From assembly GCF_035594035.1 (NCBI RefSeq), contig NZ_CP141588.1, positions 2,758,501 to 2,822,500 of the forward strand: a stretch of DNA of 64,000 bases, in the 5' to 3' direction. The notes beneath the pieces are model-generated. The model was not told the origin of the DNA and ran no database searches. It was given only the letters and a program-made list of their open reading frames with translations. This document shows, in pieces, positions 20,211-38,334 of this stretch (positions are counted from its first letter, which is position 1; the number at the start of each line of letters is the position of its first letter). The DNA is from Sphingomonas sp. LY54. Lineage in GTDB: Bacteria; Pseudomonadota; Alphaproteobacteria; Sphingomonadales; Sphingomonadaceae. Made by a program: the position numbers and the translations under genes.

Positions 20211-20694
20211 GTTCTCATCCTTACAAAACGACCTAACGAGCATCTGCCGGTCTTTGTGAGATGTTCAGCGGAAGCACCGCTGCATAACCGCCAGACCAGC
20301 CTGGTATTAGGATGGTCGGTTAAGCGCCAACAGCGGACGCTCACAGTGCCTCCTGAGTCACCCGAAAGCGGACCTTTATCCAGAGGCCGCTACCCCTGCT
20401 CTCGGCTCGCGGACGCCACGCAAAAAAGGGGCCAAGGCGGCGAAGCTGGTTGTCGCGCAAGCTGAAACTGCGACCGGCCAGGCCGCTGTTCCGATGTCAT
20501 TCCGGTTGACAGCATACGAGGCTGGTGTAACGGTACTAGAAATAGATTATAGTTACCGATTTATCGAGAGGCCCGAATGCAGGGGGTTGGATGGAACGAC
20601 GGGATCATCGCTTGGCGAAATTGGTACTACGCGCCCGACGGAAAGAGCGTCATGGCGGAGGCCGCGAGTGTCTGATCCGGTGGGAGTACCGGCC
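20211..20694 (+). other. Gene-free stretch before the acyl-CoA ligase
   Basis: No convincing gene. The first part is an AT-richer continuation of the degraded recombinase patch. The second part holds the candidate regulated promoter of the acyl-CoA ligase (20506-20558). Open frame continues upstream of the chosen ligase start but has no ligase-like content before about 20680. Confidence 0.5.
20506..20558 (+). promoter_or_regulatory. Candidate GGTACC-type operator and promoter of the acyl-CoA ligase operon
   Basis: TTGACA (20506-20511) is followed 20 bases later by CGGTACTA, whose imperfect inverted copy TAGTTACCG ends at 20558. The layout TTGACA plus GGTAC-type palindrome recurs at several promoters of this cluster; here the palindrome is the most degenerate. 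No clean -10 is visible. Confidence 0.4.
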
Positions 20695-22266
20695 ATGCCC
20701 GGCACATATGCGGGCGAGCTGCACCATGGCCCGACCTTCGGCGAGCTGACCGCCAGGGCGATCCGGCGTTATGCCGACCGGCCCGCCATCTGGTACCAGG
20801 ATAATGTTCTAAGTTACTCGCAGATGGGGGCGATGTGCAGCGGCCTGATGCAGGCGCTGAAGGGCGAGGGCGTCGGTCCGGGCCTCGGCGTCTGCGCCTT
20901 GATGTCCAACCGCCCCGAGACAATCTGCCTGCGGCTGGCGGTGCAATTGCTGGGCGCGCGGTTCACCGCGCTCAATCCGCTCGGTACCGACACGGACCAT
21001 GTCTTCATCGTCCAGGATTCCGAGGCGCGTTTCCTGATCGTCGAGGATCGTTTCTTCGGTCTGGCCGAAGCGATTGCGCGTGGGAGCGCGGTGACGCGGA
21101 CGCTTTCGGTCGGTTCGGTTGCGGGCGCCGACGATCTGCTCGCGCTCGCCGGCGCTCAGACGCCGGGCCCGGTGGTTTGCGAGGCGGACCCCGGGGGAAT
21201 CGCGGGGCTGACCTATACCGGTGGCACGACCGGCCGGCCCAAGGGCATCATCCACACGCACCGCACGCTCGTCGCCAACGTGCTGATGTGCCTCGCCGAA
21301 TGGGACTGGCCCGAGGCGCCCAACATCCTGCTCTCGACGCCGCTCGCCCATGCCTCCGGCCTGCTGACCACGCCGACCTTCGTGAAGGGAGGATGCGTGT
21401 TCCTGACCGACGGCTTCGATGCCGGCCAGTTCATCACCTTGGTCGAGCGTGAGCACATATCGGCGACCTTCCTGGTGCCGACCATGGTCTATGCGCTCAC
21501 CACCCACGAGCGGATCCGGGCGGCCGATCTGTCGAGCCTGAAGCTGATCATCTACGGCGCGGCACCGATCAGCCCTTCCCTGCTCGCCGAGGCGATGGAG
21601 ATTTTCGGCCCGGTTTTCCTGCAGCTTTACGCTCAGTCGGAGGCGCCGATGACGGTGACGACGCTGGCGCAGGCCGACCACGATCTCGACCGCCCCCAGC
21701 AATTGCTGTCGTGCGGTTTCCCGATGGTCGGGGTGCAGGTCAAACTGCTCGACGATGCCGGCACGGTCGTACCGGTTGGCGAGGTCGGCGAGATCTGCGT
21801 GCGCGGGCCTTTGGTAATGGACGGCTATTGGCGCCGGCCCGAGGAGACGGCGGCCGCGCTGCGCGACGGCTGGCTGCGCACCGGCGACCTCGCGCGCGAG
21901 GACGAGCGCGGCTATCTCTACATCGTCGACCGCAAGAAGGACATGATCATCACCGGCGGGTTCAACGTCTATCCCAAGGAAGTCGAGGACGCGCTGGCAT
22001 CGCACCCCGACGTCGCCCAGGCGGCGGTGTTCGGCGTGCCCGACGACAAATGGGGCGAGGCGGTGAAGGCGGCGATCGTGCCGTGGCCGGGGAAAGTCCC
22101 CAATCTCGACGAGATCATCGCGTTCGTCCGCGCCAGCAAGGGTGCGGTCAACACCCCCAAATCGATCGACGTGATCGCGGCGATGCCGCAGACCGCGCTC
22201 GGCAAACCCGACAAGCAGGCGCTGCGCGCGCCTTATTGGCAGGATAAGAGGCGCAATGTCGGATAG
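20695..22266 (+). CDS. Acyl-CoA synthetase (class I adenylate-forming, AMP-binding)
   Basis: 523 residues from ATG 20695 (TGGGAG 9 bases upstream). It activates a carboxylic acid to its CoA thioester through an acyl-adenylate. The P-loop-like motif LTYTGGTTGRPKGIIHTH starts near residue 172, the A5 region is QLYAQSEAPMTVT, and A7-A8 read GWLRTGDLAR and DRKKDMIITGGFNVYPKEVE; the C-terminal lysine of A10 is in TALGKPDKQALR. Length and motifs suit a medium/long-chain or aryl ligase; the substrate cannot be told. The stop overlaps the thiolase start by 11 bases, so CoA activation and thiolysis are co-expressed. Confidence 0.92.
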   Translation: MPGTYAGELHHGPTFGELTARAIRRYADRPAIWYQDNVLSYSQMGAMCSGLMQALKGEGVGPGLGVCALMSNRPETICLRLAVQLLGARFTALNPLGTDTDHVFIVQDSEARFLIVEDRFFGLAEAIARGSAVTRTLSVGSVAGADDLLALAGAQTPGPVVCEADPGGIAGLTYTGGTTGRPKGIIHTHRTLVANVLMCLAEWDWPEAPNILLSTPLAHASGLLTTPTFVKGGCVFLTDGFDAGQFITLVEREHISATFLVPTMVYALTTHERIRAADLSSLKLIIYGAAPISPSLLAEAMEIFGPVFLQLYAQSEAPMTVTTLAQADHDLDRPQQLLSCGFPMVGVQVKLLDDAGTVVPVGEVGEICVRGPLVMDGYWRRPEETAAALRDGWLRTGDLAREDERGYLYIVDRKKDMIITGGFNVYPKEVEDALASHPDVAQAAVFGVPDDKWGEAVKAAIVPWPGKVPNLDEIIAFVRASKGAVNTPKSIDVIAAMPQTALGKPDKQALRAPYWQDKRRNVG

Positions 22267-23512
22267 AAAAGCGGTCTATATCGTCGGCGCCTATGCGACC
22301 GCGGTCGGGCGCTTTCCGGGGCGTTCGCTTAAGGATCTGACGCGCGAGGCCGTCCAAGGCGTGATCGCCGACGCCGGGATCGAGAGCGGCACCGCGATCG
22401 AGAGCGCCTGGTTCGCCAATTGCGGCATGTGGGTCGAGGGGCAGGGGAGCATTCGCGGTCAGGTGATGCTGACGCCGCTCATCCGCGACGGTCTGCTCGC
22501 CGAGCGGATACCGATCGTCAATGTCGAGGGCGGCTGCGCCAGCGCGGCGATCGCCATGCAGGGCGCGCGCAAGGACATTGCCGCGGGCGACGCCGAACTG
22601 AGTTTGGCCGTCGCGGCGGAACGCACCTTCTATCCCGACGCGCCGGAGCGAACGGCGGCGCTCTTCAACGGCGGCATCGACCAATATGATTCCGACGAAT
22701 GGCACGATTACTATGCTCGCGCCGGCGAGGCCGCCGGCAAGCCGTTCGACACCGGGCCGGACCGCACCCTGTTCATGGACACTTATGCCATGCAGGCGGC
22801 GCACCACATGGCGCTTTACGGCACCACGGTCGAGCAACTCGCCATGGTCGCGGCGAAGAACCACACGATCGCCGTCCACAATCCCAAGGCGCAATACCGC
22901 TTTCCGATGACGGTGGCGCAGGTTCTCGCCGATCGTCCGGTTAGTTACCCGCTCACCCGCGCGATGTGTGCGCCGATCGGCGACGGGGCGGCGGCGGCGG
23001 TTCTGTGCTCGCAGGCCTGGCTCGACCGCGCGCCCGCGGCGGTGCAGGCACGCGCGGTGCGGATCGCGGGAACCGCGCTCACCAGCGGCAAATATCGCCG
23101 GCTCGACGAGCCCAGCCTCAGCCAGGTCGCGGCGCAGCGCGCTTATGCGACGGCCGGAATCGGGCCGGAGCAGATCGATCTCGCCGAGGTCCACGACGCG
23201 ACCGCGTTCAGCGAAATCTACCAGAGCGAAATGCTGGGCTTCTGCGCGCCGGGCGAGGGCGGCGCATTGGCGCAAAGCGGCGCGACTGCGATCGGCGGCC
23301 GCATCCCGATCAACCTGTCGGGCGGGCTCGAATCCAAGGGGCATCCGGTCGGCGCGAGCGGGCTGATGATGATCGAGGAGCTGGTGCGCCAGCTCCGCGG
23401 CGAGGCCGGCGAGCGCCAGGCGGCGCGGCACCGGATCGGGCTGGCCGAAACCGGCGGCGGCGTCGTCGGCTTCGACGAAGGCGCCTGCGCGGTCACGATC
23501 CTGGAGCGATGA
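22256..23512 (+). CDS. Thiolase family protein, SCP-x/acetyl-CoA acetyltransferase type
   Basis: 418 residues. Thiolases cleave 3-ketoacyl-CoA with CoA. The nucleophilic Cys94 is in VEGGCASAA, the catalytic His363 in SKGHPVGASG, and a C-terminal Cys411 lies in EGACAVTIL; together these suggest an active enzyme of the SCP-x-like branch rather than the classical FadA branch, whose CxG motif differs. The unusual region around FYPDAPERTAALFNGG is specific to this branch. It is the second gene of the ligase operon and converges with the SDR gene ending at 23525. Confidence 0.88.
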   Translation: MSDRKAVYIVGAYATAVGRFPGRSLKDLTREAVQGVIADAGIESGTAIESAWFANCGMWVEGQGSIRGQVMLTPLIRDGLLAERIPIVNVEGGCASAAIAMQGARKDIAAGDAELSLAVAAERTFYPDAPERTAALFNGGIDQYDSDEWHDYYARAGEAAGKPFDTGPDRTLFMDTYAMQAAHHMALYGTTVEQLAMVAAKNHTIAVHNPKAQYRFPMTVAQVLADRPVSYPLTRAMCAPIGDGAAAAVLCSQAWLDRAPAAVQARAVRIAGTALTSGKYRRLDEPSLSQVAAQRAYATAGIGPEQIDLAEVHDATAFSEIYQSEMLGFCAPGEGGALAQSGATAIGGRIPINLSGGLESKGHPVGASGLMMIEELVRQLRGEAGERQAARHRIGLAETGGGVVGFDEGACAVTILER

Positions 23513-23518
23513 TGCTTC

Positions 23519-23543
23519 CGGGCTTCAATTGAACTGAAGCCCG
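23519..23543. terminator. Hairpin between convergent thiolase and SDR genes
   Basis: CGGGCTTCA / TGAAGCCCG is a perfect 9-bp stem with a 7-nt loop, 6 bases after the thiolase stop. It overlaps the last codons of the SDR gene on the other strand. There is no clear T-tract, so termination is uncertain. Confidence 0.4.
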
Positions 23544-24259
23544 CCGTCCACATTCAATGTCTGGCCGGTGACGTAGCTGCTTTCCGCGCCGGCGAGGAAG
23601 AGCGCGGCGTCGGCGATGTCCCCCGCCGTCGCCATGCGACCGAGCGGGATGCCGTCGGCCATAGTTGCGCGCAGCTCGTGAACCGGCTTGCCGACCGTTT
23701 GGGCGCGTCGGCGCAGGACGTCCTCCCACATGGCGGTTTCGACCCGGCCCGGCGCGACCGCATTGGCGCGGATGCCGCGATCGGCGAAGGCAATCGCCGC
23801 CGACTGGGTGAGGCTGATTACCGCCGCCTTGCTGGCCGCATAGAGCACCGAGTTGGCGTTGCCCATTCGCCCTGCGACCGAGGCGATGTTGGTGATGCTC
23901 GAGCCGGGCGGCATGTGCGGCAACGCGGCCTGCGTCATCAGGGTTAGGCCGAGCACGTTGACGTCGAATATCCGGCGATAGTCGGCGCTGTCGATCTCGC
24001 CCCAAGGCTGGAGGCCGTAGACGCCGGCGCTGTTGACCAGCAGGTCGATACGGCCGGAGGTGGCGGCGATGCGGGCGACAGCGGCGTCGATTGCGCCGGC
24101 GTCCGTGACGTCGAGGGCGATCGTGCGGTCGCCCACGGTTGCTGCGCGGTCCAAGCGCCACACGTTGGCGCCGCTGGCCCCAAGCCGATCGACGATCGCT
24201 GCGCCGATGCCGCTCGCCGCGCCGGTGACGACGGCGATCTTCCCTTGAAATTGGGTCAT
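23525..24259 (-). CDS. Short-chain dehydrogenase/reductase
   Basis: 244 residues, classical SDR. NAD(P)-binding motif [11 protein letters not shown] (about 12-22), NSAG near 85, catalytic Ser and YAASKAA (Tyr-x-x-x-Lys) near 150, and the terminal [13 protein letters not shown] are all present. Asp at the end of beta 2 (WRLDRA) favours NAD. Its start overlaps the MFS stop as ATGA. In this cluster it could oxidise a hydroxyacyl intermediate; the precise substrate is unknown. Confidence 0.9.
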
Positions 24260-25770
24260 TCCTGTTTCTCTCCATCCGACAGCGCGGCGATCGCGCTCTC
24301 GAGCAGTGCGTCTTCCCGGGTCCGGCGCGCGCGCCAGCGCAATGCAGCCACCTCGTCGGGAAACATGAATCGTTCGCGCCAGCCGCCACCGGCGTCGCGC
24401 GCCAGCTCCCAGCGGCGGGCGCCGTCGCGGCGCCGGGCGCGGCCGAGTTGGCGCATCAGGGCGAGGAACCTATCCTCATTGTCGGGGGCAGGCCGATGAA
24501 GTCGTTCGACCCGGAGCGCCACGGCGTCCTCACGGGCTGGCGGGGCGGGGGTCAGGTCGACCGAATCGTCGGATACGACCGGGAGGGCGTTGCCGAGCGC
24601 GAGCGTCGCCAGCATCGCTGCGGCCGAACCAAGCATTGCCGCGGTCAGGCCGTAGCTGTCGGCGACAACGCCCCAGCAGAAGCTGCCAAGCGCGAGGCCG
24701 AGGAACAGGGCGACCTGGAGTAACGAGATCGCGCGCGCCGCGACCCAGCGCGCCGAATGGACCTGGATCGCGACATTGAGGCCGCTGAGGCCCGCCACCC
24801 AGCCGGCGCCGGTGAGCACCATCGCCAGCGCGGCCGGCACGAGCGACGGAGCAAGGCCAAGCATTGCCGCCGCGAGCGCGTAAAGGAGGGTGCAGGCCGA
24901 TAGGAAGCGGGCGCGCGGCCAATGCGCGAAGCGAGCACGGGTCATCGCGCCGGCAAAGGCGCCCGCGCCGAACATCGCGACGAGCAGGCCGAGGATCGCG
25001 GCGTCGCCGCCGATGCGGTCGTAGGCGAGCACGGGCGTCAATGCCCACACGCTCGCGCCGCTAAAAGTGAACAGGAAAGCGCGAATCGTCAGCGCCGCAA
25101 GCGTGGGACGGAGGGCGACGTAGCGCAGGCCGGCACCGATCGCGCTCGCCAGCCGCTCGCGTTGCGGGGCGGCATGGAGCGGCGGCCGCCAGCGCGCGAG
25201 CGTCGCCAGCAGCGGCAGGATCGCGGCCGTGCTGGCGGAGAGCGCCGCGATCGGACCGCCCACGGCGAGGATTCCGCCGCCCACCGCCGGGCCGACGCAG
25301 CGGGCGAGGTTGAAGCCGACCGCGTTGAGCAGGATGGCGGGCTCGAGCAGTCGGTCGTCGGCAACCTGGAGGCGGATCGAGGCGTGCCAGGCCGGATTGG
25401 CCAGCGCGAACCCGGCGCCGCCCGCGAAGGTGAGGGCCAGCAGGGCGGCGGGGCTCATTTGCCCCGACAAGGCGAGCAGCAGCAATCCCGCAGCGGCGGC
25501 GAACGTCAGCGTCTGCGCCGCCAGCATCACGCGGCGGCGGTCGTAGAGGTCGGCGAACGCGCCGGCGGGGAGCGACAGCAAAACGAGCGGCAGCGACGCG
25601 GCGGTCTGGACCGACGCCACCAGCGTCGGGCTGCCGTCGGTAAGGCTCGTCATCAGCCAAGCGACGGTGACGGCCTGCGCCATGACTCCGATGTTCGCGA
25701 CGAGATTGGCCGACCAGCAGGCGCGGAATATCGGCACTTTCAACGGAGCGATTGCCGAATCCTGCGCCAC
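24256..25770 (-). CDS. MFS transporter with C-terminal soluble domain (MFS_3 type)
   Basis: 504 residues from GTG 25770. Residues 1-400 form 12 helices; [12 protein letters not shown] is the loop 2-3 signature. The last ~100 residues are a soluble domain ([12 protein letters not shown], then [20 protein letters not shown], then a WRARRTRED stretch) that accompanies this EntS-like exporter group. It is probably an exporter, perhaps of a pathway product or toxic intermediate. A promoter with an embedded GGTACC palindrome lies directly upstream, and the SDR gene follows with an ATGA overlap. Confidence 0.88.
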
Positions 25771-25807
25771 GCGACCCCCTTTTCCGCAGACGCGCGGATC
25801 GGGGTAC

Positions 25808-25836
25808 TGTAATCAGATCGACGGTACCAGCGTCAA
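25808..25836 (-). promoter_or_regulatory. Promoter of the MFS-SDR operon with GGTACC operator
   Basis: On the minus strand TTGACG (25836-25831) and ATTACA (25813-25808) are separated by 17 bases, and TGGTACC falls inside the spacer (GGTACC at 25823-25828). A repressor bound there would block polymerase. It lies 38 bases before the MFS start and just after the tetR stop. Confidence 0.6.
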
Positions 25837-25846
25837 GGGGCCAGGC

Positions 25847-26473
25847 TCATTGCTTGGCTTGCGACGAACCCGCAGCCTCTCCGTTGCGTGGGAACAGTCC
25901 GTTCTGGATCAAGCGGGTGAGTTCGTCCCAAGCGTCGGCGAGCGAGATGCCGACCTCCTGCAGGAAGGCCGGGTCCCGCATCCGACGGAACGAGATCATG
26001 ATGACCTCGGCGACGAGATGGGGATGGTAGCCGGTGAAATAGCCCTCGCGCACGCCTTCCTCGATCATCGCGCGAATGCCGTCGGCGCGACGGCGCTGGT
26101 GCTCGCTGAAGATCTGCGAGGCGGCTGGATCGCGCTCGATGTCCCCGAGCAGCTTGTCGCCCATCTCGACCAGCGCGTTGGTGCCGACCTCGAGAAAGGC
26201 CCAGGTCCGGTCGGTGGGGGAAGAATGGAGCCCGGCGGCATCCCAACCTGCCTGGCGGATCTTTGCAAATCGCCGCTTCAGTACCAGTTCGATCAGCGCT
26301 TGCTTGCTGGTCGCAAGCTCGTACAGGGACCGTTTGGAACATTGCAGCTTGGCGGCCATGTCCGACACGCTCAGATGGCGAAAGCCTTCGCGACGAAAGA
26401 CTTGCTCCAGCTTGTCGAGCCGCCGTTCGGCTGCCGACGCCTTGCGGTCGGATGTCCCGCCGTTCGCTACCAT
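25847..26473 (-). CDS. TetR/AcrR-family transcriptional regulator
   Basis: 208 residues. The N-terminal helix-turn-helix is clear: GFRHLSVSDMAAKLQCSKRSLYE followed by KQALIELVLKRRF, residues about 30-70. The remaining helical ligand-binding domain is not recognisable by family. ATG 26473. It sits centrally in the catabolic cluster, and its own upstream region contains a GGTACC palindrome (26515-26520) about 42 bases before its start, consistent with autoregulation. I infer it to be the local repressor that reads the repeated GGTACC sites; the effector is probably a CoA ester or the free substrate. Confidence 0.9.
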   Translation of the reverse strand: MVANGGTSDRKASAAERRLDKLEQVFRREGFRHLSVSDMAAKLQCSKRSLYELATSKQALIELVLKRRFAKIRQAGWDAAGLHSSPTDRTWAFLEVGTNALVEMGDKLLGDIERDPAASQIFSEHQRRRADGIRAMIEEGVREGYFTGYHPHLVAEVIMISFRRMRDPAFLQEVGISLADAWDELTRLIQNGLFPRNGEAAGSSQAKQ

Positions 26474-26510
26474 TATCGTGTCCCCCGCTTAATGGTTTTC
26501 GTTACTGGTC

Positions 26511-26524
26511 CACCGGTACCCATA
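26511..26524 (-). promoter_or_regulatory. GGTACC operator upstream of tetR
   Basis: CACCGGTACCCATA contains the GGTACC core at 26515-26520, in the intergenic region shared by tetR and the divergent cupin gene. Half-site-like AATGGT and GTTACTGGT sequences occur between it and tetR. No confident -10/-35 for tetR is visible. Confidence 0.45.
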
Positions 26525-26592
26525 AATTGGGAAGCTGTCACGGGGCGATGCTTAGCCCGGACGTGGTCTCGCTACGCGCTGGCGCAGACGAG

Positions 26593-26647
26593 TTGACACC
26601 GGCTTCATTGCCGCTCATTGGTACCAACGCAGAATAATGGTACCATT
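26593..26647 (+). promoter_or_regulatory. Tandem GGTACC palindromes in the cupin-gene promoter
   Basis: TTGACA at 26593-26598 is followed by two perfect palindromes: TTGGTACCAA (26618-26627) and AATGGTACCATT (26636-26647). Their centres are 19 bp apart, nearly two helical turns, which suits cooperative binding of two repressor dimers. The second ends 16 bases before the cupin ATG, so occupancy would block transcription. Confidence 0.65.
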
Positions 26648-26663
26648 TCTAGGAGAGCGAGGG

Positions 26664-27470
26664 ATGAGCGGGTCGGGCAGATATACGGTGGCTGGCTTCA
26701 TGCGGGATGCGCAGAAGGTGCTCGAAACCTCGCTGCCGCTGGTCGAAAAGCAGGCCGACATCGCCGATCGCATGTCGCACCTGTCCCAGCGCGACGACCT
26801 CACCCGCTTCGGCATGCCGATTGGCCCCGCCGACGGATCGACGCAAAATTATCTGCTCGCATTCGAGCCGCCCTTCACCCTGCTGGGCCTGTCGCAATTC
26901 GACCCGCATTATCTTTCGCCGGTCCACGAACATGGCGATTTCTGGGTGATCGCCTGCGGCTGGCGTGGCGTCGACCGGTGGGACATGTACGAGCGCAAGG
27001 ACGATGGCTCGGTCCCCGGCTATGCCGATCTGGAGCTGGTCGACCAGATTTTCCTGCCGCGCGGCCGGACGACCTGGATGCCGCCGCCGCCGCGGTCGAT
27101 CCATTCGCACAATAATGAGACCGGGGCGCTCAACTGCGAGCTGATCTTCACCGCCGCCGAGCCGATGAAGGTCGAGGACCGGCTCTATTACGACGTCGAG
27201 GAAAAGACCTGCTGGCCGAGTCTTTTTCCGCCTTCGAACATCTTCCCCGACACGCGCTGGCCGCCCGAGCTGCCCGGCCATCATCGTCACGAGAAGGCTG
27301 CGCCTTGCGTCCACGAGACGCCGGGCGCCGCGCCGGCCGCCCGGGGCGACGCGCTCAGCCGCATGATCGCCTCGGCACGCGCGGGCGTGGATTCGCTGCT
27401 CGGCCGCGGGAGCTGCCCGAGCTGCAACTTGATCGATGCCGCCGCACGACTGGCGCCGCTGCGCGCCTGA
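26664..27470 (+). CDS. Cupin-fold protein, possible dioxygenase
   Basis: 268 residues, cytoplasmic. A cupin core is visible: LSPVHEHGDFWVIACGWRG (a metal-binding His-x-His followed by Asp) and, about 50 residues on, MPPPPRSIHSHNNE with further histidines. This spacing fits an iron-dependent cysteine-dioxygenase-like or related cupin enzyme, but I cannot name the family. The C-terminal ~70 residues contain a CPSC pair (GRGSCPSCNL). GAGAGCGAGGG precedes ATG 26664. It is divergent from tetR and preceded by the two strongest operators of the cluster, suggesting tight induction. Confidence 0.72.
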   Translation: MSGSGRYTVAGFMRDAQKVLETSLPLVEKQADIADRMSHLSQRDDLTRFGMPIGPADGSTQNYLLAFEPPFTLLGLSQFDPHYLSPVHEHGDFWVIACGWRGVDRWDMYERKDDGSVPGYADLELVDQIFLPRGRTTWMPPPPRSIHSHNNETGALNCELIFTAAEPMKVEDRLYYDVEEKTCWPSLFPPSNIFPDTRWPPELPGHHRHEKAAPCVHETPGAAPAARGDALSRMIASARAGVDSLLGRGSCPSCNLIDAAARLAPLRA

Positions 27471-27493
27471 GGAGGGAGCTGTGATTTCCCCGC

Positions 27494-27524
27494 TTGACAG
27501 CGACAACAGCTAATCTACGGTACC
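27494..27524 (+). promoter_or_regulatory. GGTACC promoter/operator upstream of the TonB receptor
   Basis: TTGACA (27494-27499) is followed 16 bases later by TACGGTACCACA, so the GGTACC core (27519-27524) overlaps the expected -10 position. A second GGTACC occurs at 27631-27636, closer to the receptor start, with an ATTACC half-site in between. Confidence 0.6.
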
Positions 27525-27630
27525 ACAAAATAAGAAACATTACCGATCGAAACGGCGGATAAGACAGGCCAATTCACACCGTGGTGACGAGACGCCCGGA
27601 TTCGCGCGATTGAGCGCGATCCGGAGGATC

Positions 27631-27636
27631 GGTACC
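27631..27636 (+). promoter_or_regulatory. Second GGTACC site in the TonB receptor leader
   Basis: A lone GGTACC core in GATCGGTACCGCAT, 51 bases before the receptor ATG. It is flanked by GC-rich rather than AT-rich sequence, unlike the stronger sites, and may be weak or fortuitous. Confidence 0.35.
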
Positions 27637-27687
27637 GCATGAGCCTATCACGACCCGAATCCTCGATCGCCTACTGGGAGAGAATGG

Positions 27688-30749: not shown

Positions 30750-32189
30750 TCAGGCCGCTTCGCCGGCCGGGGTCAGCGGAACCGGGACCATGGAGCCTTC
30801 GCGGGCGCGCTCGAAATCGGCTCTGATGGTGCGCGACGCGAGCAGGAAGTGGACGGCAGCCCACAACAGGCCGAGCGTGCAGAAGGCGAGGCCGGTGCGG
30901 GTCGCCTGATCGATCGCGTTCCGGCATCCCGCCTCGAGCACCGCCGAAGCGCCCTGCGCGGCGACCCCGCCGGGGCACAGAGCCGAGAAGCTGCCGGCCT
31001 GGCTCAGCCCGAAATAATAGCCCGACAGCGTGTCGATCAGCGCGCCCGCCGCGACCGTGCCGATGACGAGTGCGGCGAGGCTCGCGACCAGCGAGATCAG
31101 GGCCGTCGTCGTCGCCCGCATCCGCGCGTCGACCATGTTGTAGATCGCGGCATAGGTCGGGCTGAAATAGACGAACTGGATGACGCCGCCGACGGTCAGG
31201 AGCGCGACCGCGATGCGCCAGTCCGCCTGAAGGAAAGATGCGACCATCAGGGGCGTGGCGATCACCAGGCCAACCAGCGGCACGAAGGCGTAAGCGCGCG
31301 CGTCGCTCTTGCCGAAATAATCGGACAGGAAGCCGCCGGCGAAGGTGCCGACCGCGTTCGCCGCGCCGATCGCGAAGCCGATGATCAGGCCGACCTCGGC
31401 ATAATTGAGCCCGTAGGCGCGGATCAGGAAGGGCGCAGTGAACGCGCCGGCGCCGTAATTGACGAAGGTGAACAGAGTCACGCCCGCGATCATGTGCCGC
31501 GCGGTAGGGATGGCGAACACCCGCTTCGCCGTTTCCCAGGTCGACGGGGAGACTTCGGACTTGGCGACCCGACCGGCAAGCGCATCCGAATGGCCGCGCG
31601 GCACTTCCCGAATGACCAGCTTGAGCACGAGCGCGAGGACAAGACCGGGCACGCCCAGCACCAGGAAGGCAACGCGCCAGCCATAATATTGGGTGAGGAA
31701 GCCGCCCGCGATCGCTCCGAACATGATGCCGAGCGGGAGGCCGATCTGGTAGATGGACAGAGCCGTGGCCCGGCGGCCCGGGCCGAAATAATCGGTGATC
31801 AGCGAATAAGCGGGCGGGTTGCCGCAGGCCTCGCCGACGCCGACGCCGATCCGGCACAGCAGCAATTGACCGAAGGTGCGCGCGAAGCCCGAGAGCGAGG
31901 TGAACAGCGACCAGACGGCGATGCTGGCGGCGATGATGTTGACGCGGTTGTAGCGTTCCGAGAGTCGCGCGGCCGGCAGCGACAGCGTGACATAGAGGAT
32001 GCTGAACGCGAAGCCGTGGAGGAAACCGAGCTCGACGTCGCTCAGCTTCAGGTCCACCTTGATCGCCTGGCCGATCGTCGAGAGGACCGACCGATCCGCC
32101 CAGCTGAACAGACTGTAGAGCATCAGCAGGAAGAGGATCGTGGCACGATAGCTGCGGCTCATATTGGGCACTGCGCCGGCTTGCGACAT
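30750..32189 (-). CDS. MFS transporter, spinster-like
   Basis: 479 residues with 12 helices. Signatures include SWADRSVLSTIGQAIKVDL near the N-terminus (the sphingomonad/caulobacter spinster-like group typically starts this way), ARLSERYNRVNII in loop 2-3, and GEACGNPPAYSLITDYFGPGRRA in helix 4-5. A long loop near residue 410 carries two cysteines. Start 32189 has GGAAGGG upstream; open frame continues beyond it. This is a likely inner-membrane importer for the substrate taken up by the TonB receptor. It shares an intergenic region with the divergent cupin operon. Confidence 0.88.
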   Translation of the reverse strand: MSQAGAVPNMSRSYRATILFLLMLYSLFSWADRSVLSTIGQAIKVDLKLSDVELGFLHGFAFSILYVTLSLPAARLSERYNRVNIIAASIAVWSLFTSLSGFARTFGQLLLCRIGVGVGEACGNPPAYSLITDYFGPGRRATALSIYQIGLPLGIMFGAIAGGFLTQYYGWRVAFLVLGVPGLVLALVLKLVIREVPRGHSDALAGRVAKSEVSPSTWETAKRVFAIPTARHMIAGVTLFTFVNYGAGAFTAPFLIRAYGLNYAEVGLIIGFAIGAANAVGTFAGGFLSDYFGKSDARAYAFVPLVGLVIATPLMVASFLQADWRIAVALLTVGGVIQFVYFSPTYAAIYNMVDARMRATTTALISLVASLAALVIGTVAAGALIDTLSGYYFGLSQAGSFSALCPGGVAAQGASAVLEAGCRNAIDQATRTGLAFCTLGLLWAAVHFLLASRTIRADFERAREGSMVPVPLTPAGEAA

Positions 32190-32338
32190 TCTGGATCCCT
32201 TCCGAAGATTCTGGCCGTTGTGGCAAACGCGCCGAGCCGCCGCAAGCATAATGGTAACGAAATATGGGTTTTGGTTTCCAAATGTCTCAGCGGCTCGAAA
32301 TGTGCGCGCGGAGAGGGCGGATTCGCCCGGGCCAAGGC

Positions 32339-32378
32339 TTGACAGCCTCGCGTAAGTGGTACCAGAATGCAAAAAATG
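32339..32378 (+). promoter_or_regulatory. Promoter of the cupin-MDR-ACAD-SDR operon with GGTACC operator
   Basis: TTGACA (32339-32344) and CAGAAT (32363-32368) are 18 bases apart, with the perfect palindrome TGGTACCA (32357-32364) between and overlapping the -10. The start codon follows at 32428. A related ATGGTAAC half-site lies at about 32250, toward the divergent MFS gene. Confidence 0.65.
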
Positions 32379-32427
32379 GTTTCACAGCGAGTGGCGCGTG
32401 CCGAAACTCGTGGGCAGGAGAGATGCG

Positions 32428-33267
32428 ATGGCGTTGCTGATCAAGGAAATTCGTCCGGACGCGGAATGGGCGGTCAATTCGCCGCACCGCTCGCGCGGTA
32501 TCACCGTGCAGAACGTCTTCCAGCGCGACGTCGAGAATCGCAGCGTCGAATTCAACATCACCGCTTTCAACGGCGACGAGTTCTGGAGTCCCGCACACCG
32601 GCACAATTTCGACCAGATCCGCATCGGACTGGACGGCGTGATGAATTACGGCACGCGCAGCAAGCTGAAGCCGCGCACGGTTGCTTATTATCCCGAAGGC
32701 ACCTGGTACGGCCCGATGGCGTGTGACGGCCCGTCGATCTGTGCGATCATGCAGTTCGATGGCGCCAGCCATGGCGGCTATGTCACGCTCGGACGAATGG
32801 ACGAGGCGACGGAGGTCCTCCGTCACAAGGGCAAATTCGAGAAAGGCTTCTATTATCCCGATGACGGCAGCCCGCGCATCGATGGCTATCAGGCTTCGTG
32901 GGAGCACGTGACCGGCCGCGAGATGGTCTATGTCGATCCGCCGCGCTTCGTCGATGCAATCTACATGAACATCGACTCGTTCAACTGGCTGCCGGTCGAA
33001 GGCGGCACGATGCGCAAGACGCTCGGCCGTTTCGGCGAGCGCGACTTCACGATCGAAGCTTTGCTGGTGCCCAAGGGCGCGAGCGTGACGGTCGACAAGC
33101 CTGGTCGCCTCGTCGTCGCCTTCGTCCTCACCGGCGAGGTCGAGGTGGAGGGATCGATCCTGCCCAAATGGTCGGGCGCCTTCGCCGAGGAAGAGGACGC
33201 AATGCGCTTCGCGGGGCGCGACGAGACGTCGGAGATCCTGATCTTCACTTTGCCAGACCTCGGCTGA
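32428..33267 (+). CDS. Cupin-domain protein
   Basis: 279 residues from ATG 32428 (AGGAGA 9 bases upstream). The first half holds a cupin with HRHNFDQIRIGLDGVMNYG, a His-x-His plus Asp/Gln pattern, then YYPEGTWYGP; a second, weaker cupin-like half follows (VPKGASVTVD, LTGEVEVEGS). Bicupins of this kind can be dioxygenases, isomerases or sensors; no assignment is possible. It is the first gene of a four-gene operon whose promoter carries a GGTACC palindrome. Confidence 0.75.
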   Translation: MALLIKEIRPDAEWAVNSPHRSRGITVQNVFQRDVENRSVEFNITAFNGDEFWSPAHRHNFDQIRIGLDGVMNYGTRSKLKPRTVAYYPEGTWYGPMACDGPSICAIMQFDGASHGGYVTLGRMDEATEVLRHKGKFEKGFYYPDDGSPRIDGYQASWEHVTGREMVYVDPPRFVDAIYMNIDSFNWLPVEGGTMRKTLGRFGERDFTIEALLVPKGASVTVDKPGRLVVAFVLTGEVEVEGSILPKWSGAFAEEEDAMRFAGRDETSEILIFTLPDLG

Positions 33268-33279
33268 GCCGGGCCCGGC

Positions 33280-34308
33280 ATGGCCGCGATCAACCGCCAG
33301 CTCGTGCTGCGCGCCCGGCGCGATGGCGTGCCGCACGCCGATGACTTCGCCGTGCAGGAGGCGCCGGTCCCCGAGCCGGGCGAGGGGCAGTTCGTCGTGC
33401 GCAACCTCTATGCCTCGCTCGATCCGGCGCTGCGCCAGCGACTGACGCTGACCGACAGCTATGTGCCGCGGATCGAGCTGGGCGAGGTGCTGACTGCGAC
33501 GACCGTGGGTGTCGTCGTCGCCTCGCGCGATGCCGATTATCCGGCCGGCCAGCACGTGGTCGGCCATCACGGCATCGCCGATTACTGGCTGACCCGGGCC
33601 GGCCCGGTGACTCGGGCGGTCGATCCGGCCGCGGTGGACTCGCTCAGCCATTACCTCAGCGTGTGCGGCCCGACCGGGCTGACCGCCTATTTCGGCATCA
33701 CCCGCATCGCCTGCCCCCGCCCCGGCGAAACCGTCCTCGTCTCGGCCGCGGCCGGCGCGGTCGGATCGGTTGCGGGGCAGATCGCCAAATTGGCAGGCTG
33801 CCGCGTCATCGGCATCGCCGGTGGCCCTGAGAAGGTCCGGCGCCTGGCCGAGGATTACGGCTTCGATGCCGGCATCGATTATCGCGGCCAGGATCTCGCC
33901 GGTCTGACCGCCGCGATCCGTTCCGCCGCGCCGGAGGGCGTAGACGCCGTGTTCGAGAATGTCGGCGGCATCCAGCTCGATGCCGCGATCGACTGCGTCA
34001 ACGAGCGCGGCCGCATCGCCGTCTGCGGCCTGATCAGCCAGTATAACGCGACCGAGCCGCCGCCGCCTTTGACCAACCTGTTCAAACTGGTCGCGCGCTC
34101 GATCTGCATGGAAGGGTTCATCGTTCGCAACTACAGTGCCCAATATGGCGCAGCCGCGGCGTGCCTGGCGCAATGGGCTCGCGACGGCAAGATCCGCTTC
34201 CGCGAAGATATTCACGACGGGCTCGAGGCGGGCCCGGAGGCATTCCTGTCGCTCTTCTCGGGCGCGAACCAGGGCAAGGTGATGCTGCGGCTCGATCCCG
34301 CGGCATGA
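33280..34308 (+). CDS. NADP-dependent oxidoreductase, zinc-independent MDR family (CurA/leukotriene B4 dehydrogenase-like)
   Basis: 342 residues. The N-terminal ASLDPALRQRL and GEVLTATTVG are typical of this group, followed by the nucleotide-binding segment ETVLVSAAAGAVGSVAGQIAKLAGCRVIGIAGG (AAxGxxG) and the FENVGGIQLDAAI motif; no zinc-binding cysteines are seen. Members reduce carbon-carbon double bonds in enones or enoyl-CoAs with NADPH. In this operon it could reduce an unsaturated intermediate before or after the acyl-CoA dehydrogenase. The stop overlaps the next start as ATGA. Confidence 0.88.
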   Translation: MAAINRQLVLRARRDGVPHADDFAVQEAPVPEPGEGQFVVRNLYASLDPALRQRLTLTDSYVPRIELGEVLTATTVGVVVASRDADYPAGQHVVGHHGIADYWLTRAGPVTRAVDPAAVDSLSHYLSVCGPTGLTAYFGITRIACPRPGETVLVSAAAGAVGSVAGQIAKLAGCRVIGIAGGPEKVRRLAEDYGFDAGIDYRGQDLAGLTAAIRSAAPEGVDAVFENVGGIQLDAAIDCVNERGRIAVCGLISQYNATEPPPPLTNLFKLVARSICMEGFIVRNYSAQYGAAAACLAQWARDGKIRFREDIHDGLEAGPEAFLSLFSGANQGKVMLRLDPAA

Positions 34309-35489
34309 GCAATGAAGTGAGAGAGATGACAAACGACGGCAGGGACATCGCCGCCCGGGTCGAGGCATTCGTGCGCGACCGGGTCTTCGCTTATGAGCGC
34401 GACCCGCGTCTCGGCGGCCACGGCCCCAGCGACGAGCTGGTCGCCGAGCTTCGCGCGCTGGCGCGCGCCGCAGGCGTGCTGACGCCGCACGTGCTCGCCG
34501 ACGGGAGCCACCTGCCGCTGCGGGCCATGGCGCGGGTTTTCCGCGCCGCTGGCCTGTCGCCGCTCGGTCCGGTCGCGCTCAACGTCATGGCGCCCGACGA
34601 GGGCAATATGCACCTGCTCAGCCGCGTGGCCACCGACGCGCAGAAGGCGCAGTTCCTGGCGCCGCTGCTTGAAGGGCGGACGCGTTCGGCCTTCCTGATG
34701 ACCGAACCCGCGGCGGACGGCGGCGCCGGCTCCGATCCGTCGATGCTGCAGACGGTGGCCCGGCGCGACGGCGACGGCTGGGTGATCGACGGCCGCAAGG
34801 CCTTCATCACCGGCATAGTGGGCGCATCAACCGGCATCGTCATGGCGCGCACCGGCGAACCGGGGCGCGTCGCCGCGACGATGTTCCTGGTCGAATTGCC
34901 CGATCCGGCGGTTCGCGTCGAGCGCGTGCTCGACACGATCGACAGCTCGATGCCCGGCGGCCATTCGATCGTCGCGATCGAGGGGCTGCGCGTCGGCGAC
35001 AACGCCATCTTGGGCGAGGTCGACGAGGGTTTCCGCTATGCTCAGGTCCGGCTCGCGCCCGCGCGCCTCACCCATTGCATGCGCTGGCTCGGCGGCTGCG
35101 ACCGCGCACAGGAGATCGCCAGCGCCTACGCGGTGCGTCGCCACGCGTTCGGCAAGCCGCTGATCGACCACGAGGGCGTCGGCTTCATGCTGGCCGAGAA
35201 TATGATCGAGCTGAAGCAGGCCGAATTGATGATTGACTGGTGTGCCGGCCTACTCGACGGGGGCGCGCCGGGCACGGTCGAATCGTCGATGGCCAAGGTC
35301 GCAGTCAGCGAAGGGCTGTTCCGGATCGCCGACCGCTGCGTACAGGTCCTGGGCGGGACCGGCGTTTCGGGCGACACGATCGTCGAGCAGATTTTCCGCG
35401 AGGTGCGCGCCTTCCGCATCTATGACGGCCCCACCGAGGTCCACAAATGGAGCCTCGCCAAGCGGATCAAGCGGCAGGCCGCGGAGTGA
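34305..35489 (+). CDS. Acyl-CoA dehydrogenase, ACAD10/11-like
   Basis: 394 residues. The FAD acyl-CoA dehydrogenase fold is clear: FLMTEPAADGGAGSDPSM (FAD/substrate loop, about 123-140), DGWVIDGRKAFITG, RLTHCMRWLGGCDRAQEIA, YAVRRHAFGKPLIDHEGV and the C-terminal QVLGGTGVSGDT plus YDGPTEVHKWSLAKRI. The MTEP form together with a separate ACAD10/11-type kinase gene in the same regulon suggests the branch that removes a phosphorylated 4-hydroxyl group rather than starting ordinary beta-oxidation. That is inference. ATG 34305 overlaps the preceding stop. Confidence 0.88.
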   Translation: MSNEVREMTNDGRDIAARVEAFVRDRVFAYERDPRLGGHGPSDELVAELRALARAAGVLTPHVLADGSHLPLRAMARVFRAAGLSPLGPVALNVMAPDEGNMHLLSRVATDAQKAQFLAPLLEGRTRSAFLMTEPAADGGAGSDPSMLQTVARRDGDGWVIDGRKAFITGIVGASTGIVMARTGEPGRVAATMFLVELPDPAVRVERVLDTIDSSMPGGHSIVAIEGLRVGDNAILGEVDEGFRYAQVRLAPARLTHCMRWLGGCDRAQEIASAYAVRRHAFGKPLIDHEGVGFMLAENMIELKQAELMIDWCAGLLDGGAPGTVESSMAKVAVSEGLFRIADRCVQVLGGTGVSGDTIVEQIFREVRAFRIYDGPTEVHKWSLAKRIKRQAAE

Positions 35490-36226
35490 AGCTGTCGCTC
35501 GAAGGCAAGCGTGCCTTGGTCACCGGCGCATCGTCCGGCCTCGGCGCGCATTTTGCGAGGGTCCTGGCCGAGGCGGGGGCCGAAGTCGTGCTGGCAGCGC
35601 GCAACGTCGCCAGGCTCGAAGCGCTCGCCGCGACTATCGGGCCGGCCGCCAGCCAAGTCGCGCTCGACGTCCGCGATCCGGCCTCGGTCGCGGACGCCAT
35701 CGCGCAAGCCGGGCCGATCGACGTGCTGGTCAACAATGCCGGCGTCACCACGACCGCCCCCGCGCTCGACCAGAGCGAGGATGACTGGGCGAGCGTGGTC
35801 GGCACCAATCTGGAAGGCGGCTATCGCGTTGCGGTCGCCGCCGCGCGGGCGATGCGCGAAGGCGGTCGCGGCGGATCGATCGTCAACATCGCCTCGATCC
35901 TGGGGCTCCGGCAGGGCGGGCAGGTCACGCCCTACGCCGTGTCCAAGGCGGGCGTCATCCAGATGACCAAGCAGCTCGCGCTCGAGCTGGCGCGCTACGA
36001 CATCCGGGTGAATGCGATCGCGCCGGGCTATATCGAGACCGACCTCAACCGCGATTTTTTCGCCAGTCCGGCCGGGGAGGCGCTGGTAAAGCGTATTCCG
36101 CAGCGCCGGCTCGGTCAGCTCGCCGACCTCGACGCGCCCTTGCTCCTACTCGCGTCGTCGGCCTCTGCCTTCATGACCGGCAGCGTGATCGTCGTCGACG
36201 GCGGCCACATGGTGAGCTCGCTCTAG
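35486..36226 (+). CDS. Short-chain dehydrogenase/reductase
   Basis: 246 residues from GTG 35486, which overlaps the ACAD stop (GTGA). Motifs: TGASSGLGAHFARVL (11-25), an Arg after beta 2 (LAARNVARLEAL, suggesting NADP), NNAGVTTTAPAL, SILGLRQGG with the catalytic Ser, YAVSKAGVIQMTKQLA and SVIVVDGGHMVSSL. It is the last gene of the cupin-MDR-ACAD-SDR operon and converges with the dioxygenase gene. Confidence 0.9.
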   Translation: MKLSLEGKRALVTGASSGLGAHFARVLAEAGAEVVLAARNVARLEALAATIGPAASQVALDVRDPASVADAIAQAGPIDVLVNNAGVTTTAPALDQSEDDWASVVGTNLEGGYRVAVAAARAMREGGRGGSIVNIASILGLRQGGQVTPYAVSKAGVIQMTKQLALELARYDIRVNAIAPGYIETDLNRDFFASPAGEALVKRIPQRRLGQLADLDAPLLLLASSASAFMTGSVIVVDGGHMVSSL

Positions 36227-36240
36227 GCACGCTTTAGTTC

Positions 36241-37146
36241 CTACGGCGTGAGCAGGCGGCCGGTCGGCTGATCGCCCGCCAAAGTGGTCCGCTGCACGAC
36301 CCGCGTCTCGGCATAGGGAAAGCCGAACGCCGCATGCATGGTGCGGCGATTGTCCCACAGCACGAGGTCGTTCACCGCCCAATGGTGCCGGTAGCAGAAA
36401 CGTGGCTCGACCGCGTGGCGCACCACTTCCTCATAGATTCGATCGCCCTCGGTCCGGTCCATGCCCCAGACCCCGTCATAGCCGAGCGGGCTGAGGAGCA
36501 GCGCCTTGGCGCCCGACACCGGATGCTCGATCGCCATCGGCTGGAGGACCGGTGGAAAGGGCTGGTGATCGACGACCGGCATCGGGTCGTCCGTGCTTAC
36601 GGCGTCCAGGTGGATCTCGGGCCAGCCCCAAAGCCGCTCGGGAAAGTCGCGCCAGACCTGGACCGTCGCATGGCTATCGCAGAACGCCTTCAGGTTGGCG
36701 GGCAGGGCCGCATAGGCCGCCTGCGTATCGGTCCACAATGTGTCGCCGCCATGGGCGGGCGGCTGGATCATCCGCAGCATTCCGCCCTGCGAGATGGACG
36801 GCGTATAGGCGCCGTCCTGGTGCAGGAAGAGGAAGCCGGCGCGCAATTCGCCGTCGACGCGCATCGGCGGACCCTTCTTGTCGCCCTCGCCGCCGAGCAC
36901 GATCAGGTCCGGATTGTCGGCGACGCGCAGCGACTCGATCACATGCTCCTGCAATGCGCCGAAGATGCGCGACAGGCGGACGTGGGTCGCGGCGTCGGTG
37001 CCGACGCGCCGGAACAACAGCACGCCATGCTCAATCCAGAGCGCGCGCAGCCTGTCCTCGTCCGCCCCGCCAATCCGTGCGGAATCGAGTCCGACGATCT
37101 CGACGCCGATATGGGCCAACGGTGCGACCGTGAAAGTGCTCTGCAT
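36241..37146 (-). CDS. TauD/TfdA-family 2-oxoglutarate-dependent dioxygenase
   Basis: 301 residues. The iron-binding facial triad is visible: His109 and Asp111 in FLFLHQDGAYTP and His271 in NRRTMHAAFG, with arginines 11-15 residues later (RVVQR) for 2-oxoglutarate. The family hydroxylates unactivated carbons, often releasing sulfite or a phenol from its substrate. GGGAGGA upstream places the start at 37146 or 37149. It diverges from the kinase gene across a region with two GGTACC sites. In this cluster it may introduce the hydroxyl group that the kinase later phosphorylates; this is inference. Confidence 0.9.
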   Translation of the reverse strand: MQSTFTVAPLAHIGVEIVGLDSARIGGADEDRLRALWIEHGVLLFRRVGTDAATHVRLSRIFGALQEHVIESLRVADNPDLIVLGGEGDKKGPPMRVDGELRAGFLFLHQDGAYTPSISQGGMLRMIQPPAHGGDTLWTDTQAAYAALPANLKAFCDSHATVQVWRDFPERLWGWPEIHLDAVSTDDPMPVVDHQPFPPVLQPMAIEHPVSGAKALLLSPLGYDGVWGMDRTEGDRIYEEVVRHAVEPRFCYRHHWAVNDLVLWDNRRTMHAAFGFPYAETRVVQRTTLAGDQPTGRLLTP

Positions 37147-37165
37147 CATTCCTCCCACGCACGCC

Positions 37166-37199
37166 TTGCGGTACCATTTATATAATGTAGGTACCGGTC
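37166..37199. promoter_or_regulatory. Paired GGTACC operators in divergent promoter region
   Basis: Two GGTACC cores (37170-37175 and 37190-37195) are centred 20 bp apart, about two helical turns, and enclose TATAAT (37181-37186). The region lies between the divergent dioxygenase and kinase genes, only 60 bases apart, so a dimer pair could silence both. A -35 for TATAAT is not obvious on the plus strand. Confidence 0.65.
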
Positions 37200-37206
37200 A
37201 AATCGG

Positions 37207-38334
37207 ATGAGCGTCAAGGGATCGACTGATCATGGCCAAATGTTGCGGGACGAGGTCGAGGTGACCCTGGGTAGCGATCCCAATAGTGGTACCACGGCGG
37301 TGCGGGCTGCGCATGCATTTGACGAGCGTGCGCTGGCCGCGTGGATGGCATGCAACGTCGATGGCTTTGGCGGGCCGATGCGGGTCGAACAGTTCAAGGG
37401 GGGGCAGTCCAACCCGACCTACAAGCTCGTGACGCCGGGACGGAGCTACGTCCTGCGCCGCAAGCCGCCCGGTACGTTGCTGAAGGGCGCGCACGCGATC
37501 GAGCGCGAGGCGCGGGTGTTGCAGGCGCTGGCCAAGGCGGACTTTCCGGTCGCGCGGGTCCATGCCTTGTGCACCGACGAGGATGTGATCGGCACCTGGT
37601 TCTATGTCATGGACATGGTCGAGGGCCGCATCTTCTGGGACGCGACCTTCTCCGCCGTGCCGCGGGACGAGCGCGCAGCCTATTTCGACGCGATGAACGC
37701 GACGATCGCCGCGCTGCACGCGATCGAGCCGCAAGCGGTCGGGCTCGGTGATTACGGCCGCCCCGGCAATTATTTCGCGCGCCAGGTGGCGCGCTGGTCG
37801 AAGCAATATCTGGAGGACGAGGAAGCGGGCCGCGATCCGGCGATGGACCGGCTGGTCGAATGGCTGCCCACGCACCTCCCGGTCGGAGACGAGGTCGCGA
37901 TCGTCCATGGCGATTTCCGCTGCGACAACATGATCTTCCACCCGATCGAGCCCAAGGTGCTGGCCGTGCTCGACTGGGAATTGTCGACGCTCGGCCATCC
38001 GCTCGCCGATTTCACCTATCACAGCATGATGTACCACATGCCGCCGGACATCGTGGCGGGGCTGTTCGGCGCCGACCTGGCCGAACTGGGGCTGCCGTCG
38101 GAAGAGGATTATGTACGGGCTTATTGCGCGCGGACCGGTCGCTCCGAGGTTCCCCGACCGCTCTACCTCTTCTGCATCGTCTTCAACCTGTTTCGGCTTG
38201 CCGCCATCTTCCACGGCATCAAGGGCAGGGTGGCGCGCGGCACCGCCGCTTCCGCCCATGCGAAAGAACGGGCCGCCCACTTCCCCCGCCTCGCCGCGCT
38301 GGCGTGGGAGCGGGCTGGATGGATTGGCTGCTAA
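37207..38334 (+). CDS. Phosphotransferase, ACAD10/11-type kinase (APH fold)
   Basis: 375 residues as read from ATG 37207. From about residue 60 it follows the kinase domain of ACAD10/11: FKGGQSNPTYKL, YVLRRKPPGTLLKGAHAIERE, VIGTWFYVMDMVEGRIFWD, GNYFARQVARWSKQY, catalytic loop VHGDFRCDNMIF (about 233-244) and LDWELSTLGHPLADF. Such kinases phosphorylate the 4-hydroxyl of acyl-CoAs before elimination. The N-terminal ~30 residues are atypical and include a GGTACC palindrome (37286-37295), so a downstream start such as GTG 37300 is possible. The partner dehydrogenase is at 34305. Confidence 0.88.
   Translation: MSVKGSTDHGQMLRDEVEVTLGSDPNSGTTAVRAAHAFDERALAAWMACNVDGFGGPMRVEQFKGGQSNPTYKLVTPGRSYVLRRKPPGTLLKGAHAIEREARVLQALAKADFPVARVHALCTDEDVIGTWFYVMDMVEGRIFWDATFSAVPRDERAAYFDAMNATIAALHAIEPQAVGLGDYGRPGNYFARQVARWSKQYLEDEEAGRDPAMDRLVEWLPTHLPVGDEVAIVHGDFRCDNMIFHPIEPKVLAVLDWELSTLGHPLADFTYHSMMYHMPPDIVAGLFGADLAELGLPSEEDYVRAYCARTGRSEVPRPLYLFCIVFNLFRLAAIFHGIKGRVARGTAASAHAKERAAHFPRLAALAWERAGWIGC
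37286..37295 (+). promoter_or_regulatory. GGTACC palindrome inside the annotated kinase 5' end
   Basis: GTGGTACCAC is a perfect 10-bp palindrome with the GGTACC core at 37288-37293, 5 bases before an in-frame GTG (37300) that would give a more typical kinase N-terminus. It may be a third operator of this promoter region, or chance. Confidence 0.35.

Follow-up and report, generated by a model that had tools for sequence, protein, structure and literature searches.

Paired GGTACC-like palindromes as predicted operators of a local TetR regulon in a putative catabolic gene cluster of Sphingomonas sp. LY54

The 64,000-nucleotide stretch of Sphingomonas sp. LY54 DNA analysed here (the window; contig NZ_CP141588.1, positions 2,758,501 to 2,822,500) contains a gene cluster that encodes an acyl-CoA ligase, a thiolase-like protein, SDR oxidoreductases, two MFS transporters, a TonB-dependent receptor, two proteins referred to as cupins 1 and 2 after a preliminary description of this DNA, a medium-chain reductase (MDR), an acyl-CoA dehydrogenase (ACAD), a TauD/TfdA-type dioxygenase, an APH-type kinase and a TetR-family regulator (Table 1). 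The cluster appears to serve the breakdown of an organic compound. The preliminary description had noted GGTACC palindromes in front of its transcription units and proposed that they form one regulon under the TetR protein. The sites are in fact arranged as doublets, and these are very probably the operators of a local, autoregulated regulon run by the TetR repressor of the cluster, its binding being predicted. The case that links this protein to the operators is strong but indirect.

The unit is a doublet of two GGTACC-like boxes, not a single palindrome. Eight doublets lie in six intergenic stretches, belonging to the ligase, MFS_3, tetR, cupin 1, TonB receptor, second MFS, cupin 2 and TauD/kinase genes, and they sit at the core promoters predicted by eye for the units of the cluster, including that of tetR. 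The centres of the two boxes are 19-20 bp apart (21 bp at tetR), separated by a spacer of 13-15 bp that is often rich in A and T. The first box reads GGTACC in 13 of 16 cases, counting the present cluster together with its orthologue in Sphingomonas colocasiae, and the second ranges from a perfect GGTACC to forms such as ATTACC or GGTTTC.

Table 1. Genes and predicted operators of the cluster, in window coordinates.
Feature	Position	Strand	Sequence form or supporting match	In S. colocasiae
Predicted ligase-thiolase operator	20532..20557	+	GGTACT-N14-GTTACC; TTGACA 20 bp upstream of first box	GGTACC-N13-GGTACC; TTGACA distance likewise 20 bp
AMP-binding acyl-CoA ligase	20695..22266	+	Pfam AMP-binding; best NCBIfam model (FadD8) below cut-off	
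Thiolase / lipid-transfer type protein	22256..23512	+	Pfam and NCBIfam scans	
SDR oxidoreductase	23525..24259	-	Family scan	
MFS_3 transporter	24256..25770	-	Family scan	
Predicted MFS_3-SDR operator	25803..25828	-	GGTACC-N14-AGTACC; TTGACG 2 bp upstream	Identical boxes; TTGACT 2 bp upstream
TetR-family regulator, 208 aa, proposed repressor	25847..26473	-	Pfam TetR_N PF00440, 25.5 bits (cut-off 24)	90-94% identical
Predicted tetR operator (autoregulation)	26494..26520	-	GGTACC and weak second box 21 bp off; TGACA 15 bp upstream	GGTACC-N14-ATAACC; TGACA distance likewise 15 bp
Predicted cupin 1 operator	26620..26644	+	GGTACC-N13-GGTACC; TTGACA 21 bp upstream	Spacing equal
Cupin 1	26664..27470	+	Mercaptosuccinate dioxygenase 8vni, E 4.6e-7	
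Predicted operator of TonB receptor unit	27519..27544	+	GGTACC-N14-ATTACC; TTGACA 19 bp upstream	GGTACC-N14-GTTACC; 19 bp kept
Single GGTACC	27631..27636	.	Between TonB operator and TonB start	Loosely placed counterpart
TonB-dependent receptor	27688..29898	+	Family scan	
SDR oxidoreductase	29999..30748	+	Family scan	
MFS_1 transporter (second MFS)	30750..32249	-	Family scans; ATG 32249 only 3 bp from operator	
Predicted second MFS operator	32253..32278	-	GAAACC-N14-GTTACC; no exact GGTACC	GGAACC-N14-GTTACC; position equivalent
Predicted cupin 2-MDR-ACAD-SDR operator	32358..32383	+	GGTACC-N14-GGTTTC; TTGACA 13 bp upstream	GGTACC-N14-CGTTTC; 13 bp kept
Cupin 2	32425..33267	+		89% identical
Zinc-type medium-chain reductase (MDR), CurA-like	33280..34308	+	Below NCBIfam cut-off	
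Acyl-CoA dehydrogenase (ACAD) ORF	34161..35489	+	True start later	Conserved from about 34332
SDR oxidoreductase	35447..36226	+	Family scan	
TauD/TfdA-type dioxygenase	36241..37149	-	Family scan; ATG at 37149	
Predicted shared operator of divergent TauD dioxygenase and kinase	37170..37195	.	GGTACC-N14-GGTACC	Exact doublet in both species
APH-type kinase	37207..38334	+	Best solved relative 3dxp (E 2.6e-118)	

Scanning GTDB contigs for the TetR protein gave one relative, S. colocasiae JCM 31229 (94% identity over the best segment), in which the cluster is collinear and the aligned pieces of DNA are 78-85% identical. The motif search on this orthologous cluster that the preliminary description had proposed finds the positions kept. 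Over the 16 boxes 90 of 96 bases are identical between the two species, compared with 507 of 880 outside the boxes in the same intergenic stretches, gaps being scored as differences. The distance from the -35-type hexamer to the first box is the same in both species at six of the eight doublets (20, 2, 15, 21, 19 and 13 bp). Four of these distances, those of 20, 21, 19 and 13 bp at the ligase, cupin 1, TonB and cupin 2 promoters, are among the TTGACA or TTGACG hexamers already noticed within 13-21 bp of the palindromes, as is the TTGACG at 16 bp from the TauD box, where the promoter distance differs in S. colocasiae. No -35-type hexamer was seen at the second MFS promoter.

An exact search of the window returned 12 GGTACC sites, all between 20792 and 37293 and all in the cluster; these are the ten positions listed before and two within the ligase open reading frame (ORF), at 20792 and 20983, and the site at 20532 reads GGTACT and is degenerate, as had been said. 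Dinucleotide shuffles of the window gave a mean of 5.02 sites (standard deviation 2.30), and 12 were reached in one of 100. Genome-wide there are 196 sites in 3.28 Mb (one contig), or one per 16.7 kb, so the rate of one per 3 kb assumed earlier was too high. At the rate found outside the cluster, 1.0 site would be expected in the 17.8-kb cluster region (Poisson P 9e-10). Nine of the 12 are wholly intergenic, in keeping with the original remark, in a region of which 5.3-6.3% is intergenic (binomial P 7e-10 to 3e-9, the ranges of both share and P being set by the gene starts assumed). The reversed hexamer CCATGG occurs 927 times in the genome, and the rarity of GGTACC by comparison may point to past restriction avoidance.

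The three coding sites are probably irrelevant to the regulon and were rejected as operators: 20792 and 20983 are both inside the ligase coding sequence, the former with a counterpart in the ligase of S. colocasiae and the latter with none, and 37288 falls within the kinase frame and has no counterpart there. The role of the single box at 27631 is doubtful, as the matching S. colocasiae interval contains a GGTACC but without alignment. The earlier statement that the sites precede the cluster units therefore stands for the conserved doublets; it does not extend to these four sites, and it had missed the doublet at 32253-32278 because this contains no exact GGTACC. S. colocasiae has coding GGTACC sites of its own, at 12445 and 22149 of the joined stretch, and the second is part of a one-mismatch doublet inside an SDR gene, so a doublet is not always an operator.

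A matrix built from seven S. colocasiae doublets alone and run over the window placed 26620, 32358, 37170, 27519, 32253 and 20532 at the top (31.6 to 18.9 bits), compared with a best score of 10.5 bits in the reversed window and 12.1 bits in 10 Markov sequences. The tetR operator, at 11.4 bits, is inseparable from this noise. The tetR and MFS_3 doublets are thus placed by alignment and by their fixed -35 distances, because their matrix scores are within noise. A second, sequence-only model (R1) was trained on 14 of the 16 sites, those of tetR being omitted. From 56 first-look candidates in the genome of LY54 and 112 in that of S. colocasiae, it gave at E up to 10 seven matches and 10 rows, respectively, all in the cluster, and no match outside it in 3.28 Mb or 6.6 Mb; matches at the training sites arise by construction, and the informative part is that nothing was found elsewhere. 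Both the S. colocasiae matrix and R1 recovered the second MFS operator. With one mismatch allowed, GGTACC-N13/14-GGTACC is matched in the genome of LY54 within the cluster alone, and in S. colocasiae there are two matches outside the cluster and one inside a cluster gene. Reading the boxes singly was not fruitful, as the interval from 20 to 38 kb holds 37 single-box scores above 4 bits, many of which are genic, and the doublet alone separates promoters from noise.

The window TetR belongs to its family by the TetR_N helix-turn-helix domain; its match to TetR_C_27 reaches 24.4 bits (cut-off 26.1). The profile of its subfamily matches TetR structures over nearly their full length, for example 3vpr (positions 11-194 of 200), and distant homologues are 24-37% identical where this was computed. 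Residues C45, S46, L50, Y51, A54 and K57 are invariant across all 11 aligned TetR proteins. By analogy with other TetR proteins we take CSKRSLYELATSK to be the recognition-helix region, which would presumably place the invariant residues in and just after the recognition helix. The protein was found in one of 148 related genomes, its own (E 1e-20), and in two of 396 genomes of the order (E 1e-15). Among those 396, this genome alone has two exact doublets, 22 have one and 373 have none.

The relation between the protein and the doublet was followed in 12 loci of distant TetR homologues (217 kb), from Alphaproteobacteria to Streptomyces. These comprise one from the order (G397) and those from searches that gave five of six records, five of five other genomes and one new genome, after which a further homologue search gave no new one. 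A plasmid match (H2, the same as H1 in species and identity) and a second place in the H3 record were left out, L061-L064 gave way to extended stretches (L066-L069) covering the same loci, and L065 was retained as a miss. Pairs of GTAC exactly 20 bp apart (GTAC-N16-GTAC) occur 15 times, in 10 of the 12 loci, where the mean over other spacings from 4 to 60 is 1.66 and none exceeds 6. In the first 10 loci there are 14 such pairs, compared with a Markov null mean of 0.455 and a maximum of 3 in 200 runs. Eight control loci of another TetR subfamily (165 kb, equal GTAC density) contain no GTAC-N16-GTAC, with a mean of 1.16 at other spacings; GGTA-N18-TACC is present by chance in two of them. The controls are eight of 11 non-self rows among the matches listed (12 of 49 records), and acyl-CoA type genes are annotated in six, L080 being unannotated and L082 having mainly other genes.

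The doublets of the distant loci are also found at recurrent places. Thirteen of the 15 GTAC pairs lie before tetR, before a CoA ligase gene or between the two, one of them (L072) preceding a small ORF ahead of the ligase; the remaining two precede a TonB gene (L057) and a fumarylacetoacetate-hydrolase-type gene (L068). The tetR promoter of L071 carries GGTA-N18-TACC. The G397 homologue, which is 37% identical and has ligase, TonB receptor and thiolase-like genes nearby, has this form exactly twice in 19 kb, in the interval between ligase and tetR and before the TonB gene. In L066 (9789-9857) and L067 (10526-10594) two doublets 43 bp apart stand between divergent ligase and tetR genes, and one of those in L066 is a perfect 26-bp palindrome. 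Searching the Rhodococcus locus L059 with the GGTACC matrix gave no convincing doublet (best 15.4, far from tetR); the locus is counted on the basis of the GTAC-N16-GTAC in its tetR promoter, and on that basis only. A third GTAC, 8 or 12 bp away from one outer box, was observed within some doublets (L057 10418-10443 and 12012-12037; L072 6323-6348 and 9811-9836), both in a relative of the window's family and in Streptomyces.

The recognition helices of a single TetR dimer are 31-38 Å apart, about one turn (PMC4150764). The proposed TetR element is 25-26 bp long, and the centres of its two palindromes, at 19-20 bp, are about two helical turns apart; since this is about twice the separation within one dimer, one dimer per box and two dimers per operator would be most likely. 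Repression is the simplest reading: in every unit the element covers or adjoins the predicted core promoter, where bound TetR would block RNA polymerase, and the parts of these predicted promoters that the doublets overlap are the spacer, the -10 or the start region. The tetR gene would be repressed in the same way. TetR may then be released by a compound of the pathway, the likeliest candidates being a CoA thioester and the acid used by the ligase, and this would allow joint expression of functions for uptake (the TonB receptor and two MFS transporters), activation (the CoA ligase) and degradation.

Several points weigh against this interpretation. A single canonical TetR dimer is too short to span a doublet with 20-bp spacing, so two dimers are an assumption. 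The second boxes vary widely; the tetR operator is the weakest of the eight, with a weak second box, and was missed by R1, and the MFS_3 operator scores 8.5 bits, within the noise of the S. colocasiae matrix. The count of 90 of 96 identical bases comes from the very two clusters on which the boxes had been defined. From its own 5-mers the window would be expected to contain 10.0 GGTACC, with no excess at that level, a figure that needs caution because the same sites raise those 5-mers. Among the distant loci, no site occurs in the 3.6 kb of the weakest homologue locus (L065, E 2.7e-14), the boxes of L059 and L070 are AGTACT/GGTACT and not GGTACC, the doublets of the Cupriavidus and G521 loci are at the ligase or the next gene instead of the tetR promoter, and some test loci share ancestry (L066/L067; L059/L070). 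Finding none in the control loci is small evidence by itself, as about one pair would be expected.

Three other explanations may be considered. It is unlikely that TetR is an activator, or activator and repressor at once, in place of a simple repressor. Most of the subfamily (seven of 11 members, best E 1.6e-12) match the NCBIfam model of FasR (NF053731), an activator; however, the window TetR has no match to this model at E 0.001, and the first boxes, 2 to 21 bp downstream of a -35-type hexamer of the predicted promoters, occupy the usual place of a repressor site. The operators could also be real and be read by a regulator encoded elsewhere, with the cluster TetR controlling itself alone or something else. 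The tetR promoter having the poorest operator would fit such an arrangement, yet a 20-bp GTAC or GGTA/TACC doublet accompanies the distant homologues at 11 of 12 loci across phyla and GTAC-N16-GTAC none of the eight loci of the other subfamily, and both the TetR and the multi-site pattern are very narrowly distributed, which makes this arrangement improbable. That the GGTACC excess is an accident of chance, composition, restriction sites or a repeat, with no regulatory meaning, is hardly credible: the 5-mer expectation and the rarity of GGTACC in the genome speak for it, whereas site, spacing and -35 distance are kept in a diverged orthologous cluster and the doublet recurs in distant relatives. 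Repression by the cluster TetR through paired boxes thus remains the preferred reading, and the regulon first proposed is upheld by conservation, by the lack of model matches outside the cluster in the two genomes and by the distant homologue loci, with the doublet replacing the single palindrome as its site.

Comparable regulators are known. EdcR of Caenibius tardaugens, also of the Sphingomonadales, is the TetR repressor of an estradiol cluster, and its palindrome overlaps the -10 at several promoters (PMC8700777); like the window TetR it is encoded within the catabolic cluster, and its site is found partly at its own promoter and is conserved in one relative (PMC8700777). Unlike the window, its operator is a single palindrome, TnnCnnTACnAnTnGTAnnGnnA, the core of which, TACNANTNGTA, has no match in the window. 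MbdR of Azoarcus sp. CIB, another TetR protein, represses a catabolic cluster with several promoters and responds to a CoA thioester (PMC4424350), a similar case of local control; its operator ATAC-N10-GTAT likewise has no match in the window. Binding as a dimer of dimers, as proposed here, is reported for the TetR proteins DarR, QacR, CgmR, SlmA and CprB (PMC4150764; PMC10636190), the sites of which are overlapping or single and so unlike the spaced doublet; the window contains no DarR motif ATACT-N4-AGTAT, also when one mismatch is allowed. FasR of Mycobacterium tuberculosis, a sensor of acyl-CoA that has three inverted repeats as its binding site (PMC7382501), differs from the proposed repressor in activating fatty acid synthesis. 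No description of the doublet operator was recognised among the literature matches listed, which leave subscription papers mostly outside their scope, and AGTACT matches in PMC6921075 and PMC5541348 are primer sequences, not operators.

As a predicted regulon the arrangement is well supported. Local control by a TetR protein is ordinary in kind; what is unusual is a doublet code that is fixed and common across phyla. We consider it reasonably probable, as one joint claim, that this TetR subfamily uses a fixed code of two GTAC-centred palindromes two turns apart, read by cooperating dimers, to gate catabolic pathways initiated by a CoA ligase, and that the subfamily, which extends from Sphingomonadales to Actinomycetota, lacks a description in the literature searched. 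If so, the operator doublet alone would be enough to predict regulon members and find new pathways of this kind. Distant bacteria have the doublet next to tetR and CoA-ligase genes as well, so that it could serve in finding and classifying pathways that have no assigned substrate. For this cluster, sequence alone yields a likely regulator, its DNA code and a likely set of targets. The 26-bp operator and its repressor are a candidate biosensor, and the fixed 20-bp spacing raises a structural question: how can short palindromes that lie two turns apart be read as a pair by a TetR protein?

The kinase and the acyl-CoA dehydrogenase recall LvaA/LvaC of Pseudomonas putida and mammalian ACAD11, the two parts of which they match by sequence. 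The best solved relative of the dehydrogenase is the ACAD part of ACAD11 (8v3u, E 3.5e-49), followed by 4hr3 (1.1e-47), and the second solved relative of the kinase is the kinase half of ACAD11 (8v3v, 6.5e-74). In contrast to ACAD11 the two are separate genes here, under different predicted operators of one regulon. The substrates phosphorylated and processed by ACAD11 are 4-hydroxyacyl-CoAs (PMC12440821), so part of the pathway may plausibly run through an intermediate of this type. For cupin 1, 8vni is the sole match among solved structures at E 0.1, and there is no Pfam or NCBIfam match at E 0.001; for cupin 2, neither Pfam at E 0.001 nor NCBIfam at E 1e-20 gave a match.

Two gene starts affect the position of the operators. 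The long ORF of the ligase already begins at 20494, ahead of the operator; since the S. colocasiae alignment begins at its residue 70, translation more likely starts from the in-frame ATG at 20695. The start of the second MFS gene is doubtful because its ATG nearly touches the operator and the alignment begins at residue 17; the true start may be at about 32201. Just left of the cluster are a tRNA-Gln gene (18349-18423) and a resolvase-type recombinase gene (19614-20243). Because these adjoin it and the regulator was not found in the 147 other related genomes, the cluster may be an acquired island. Just to its right, the ORF at 40562-43714 contains many RTX calcium-binding nonapeptide repeats (PF00353, 11 stretches).

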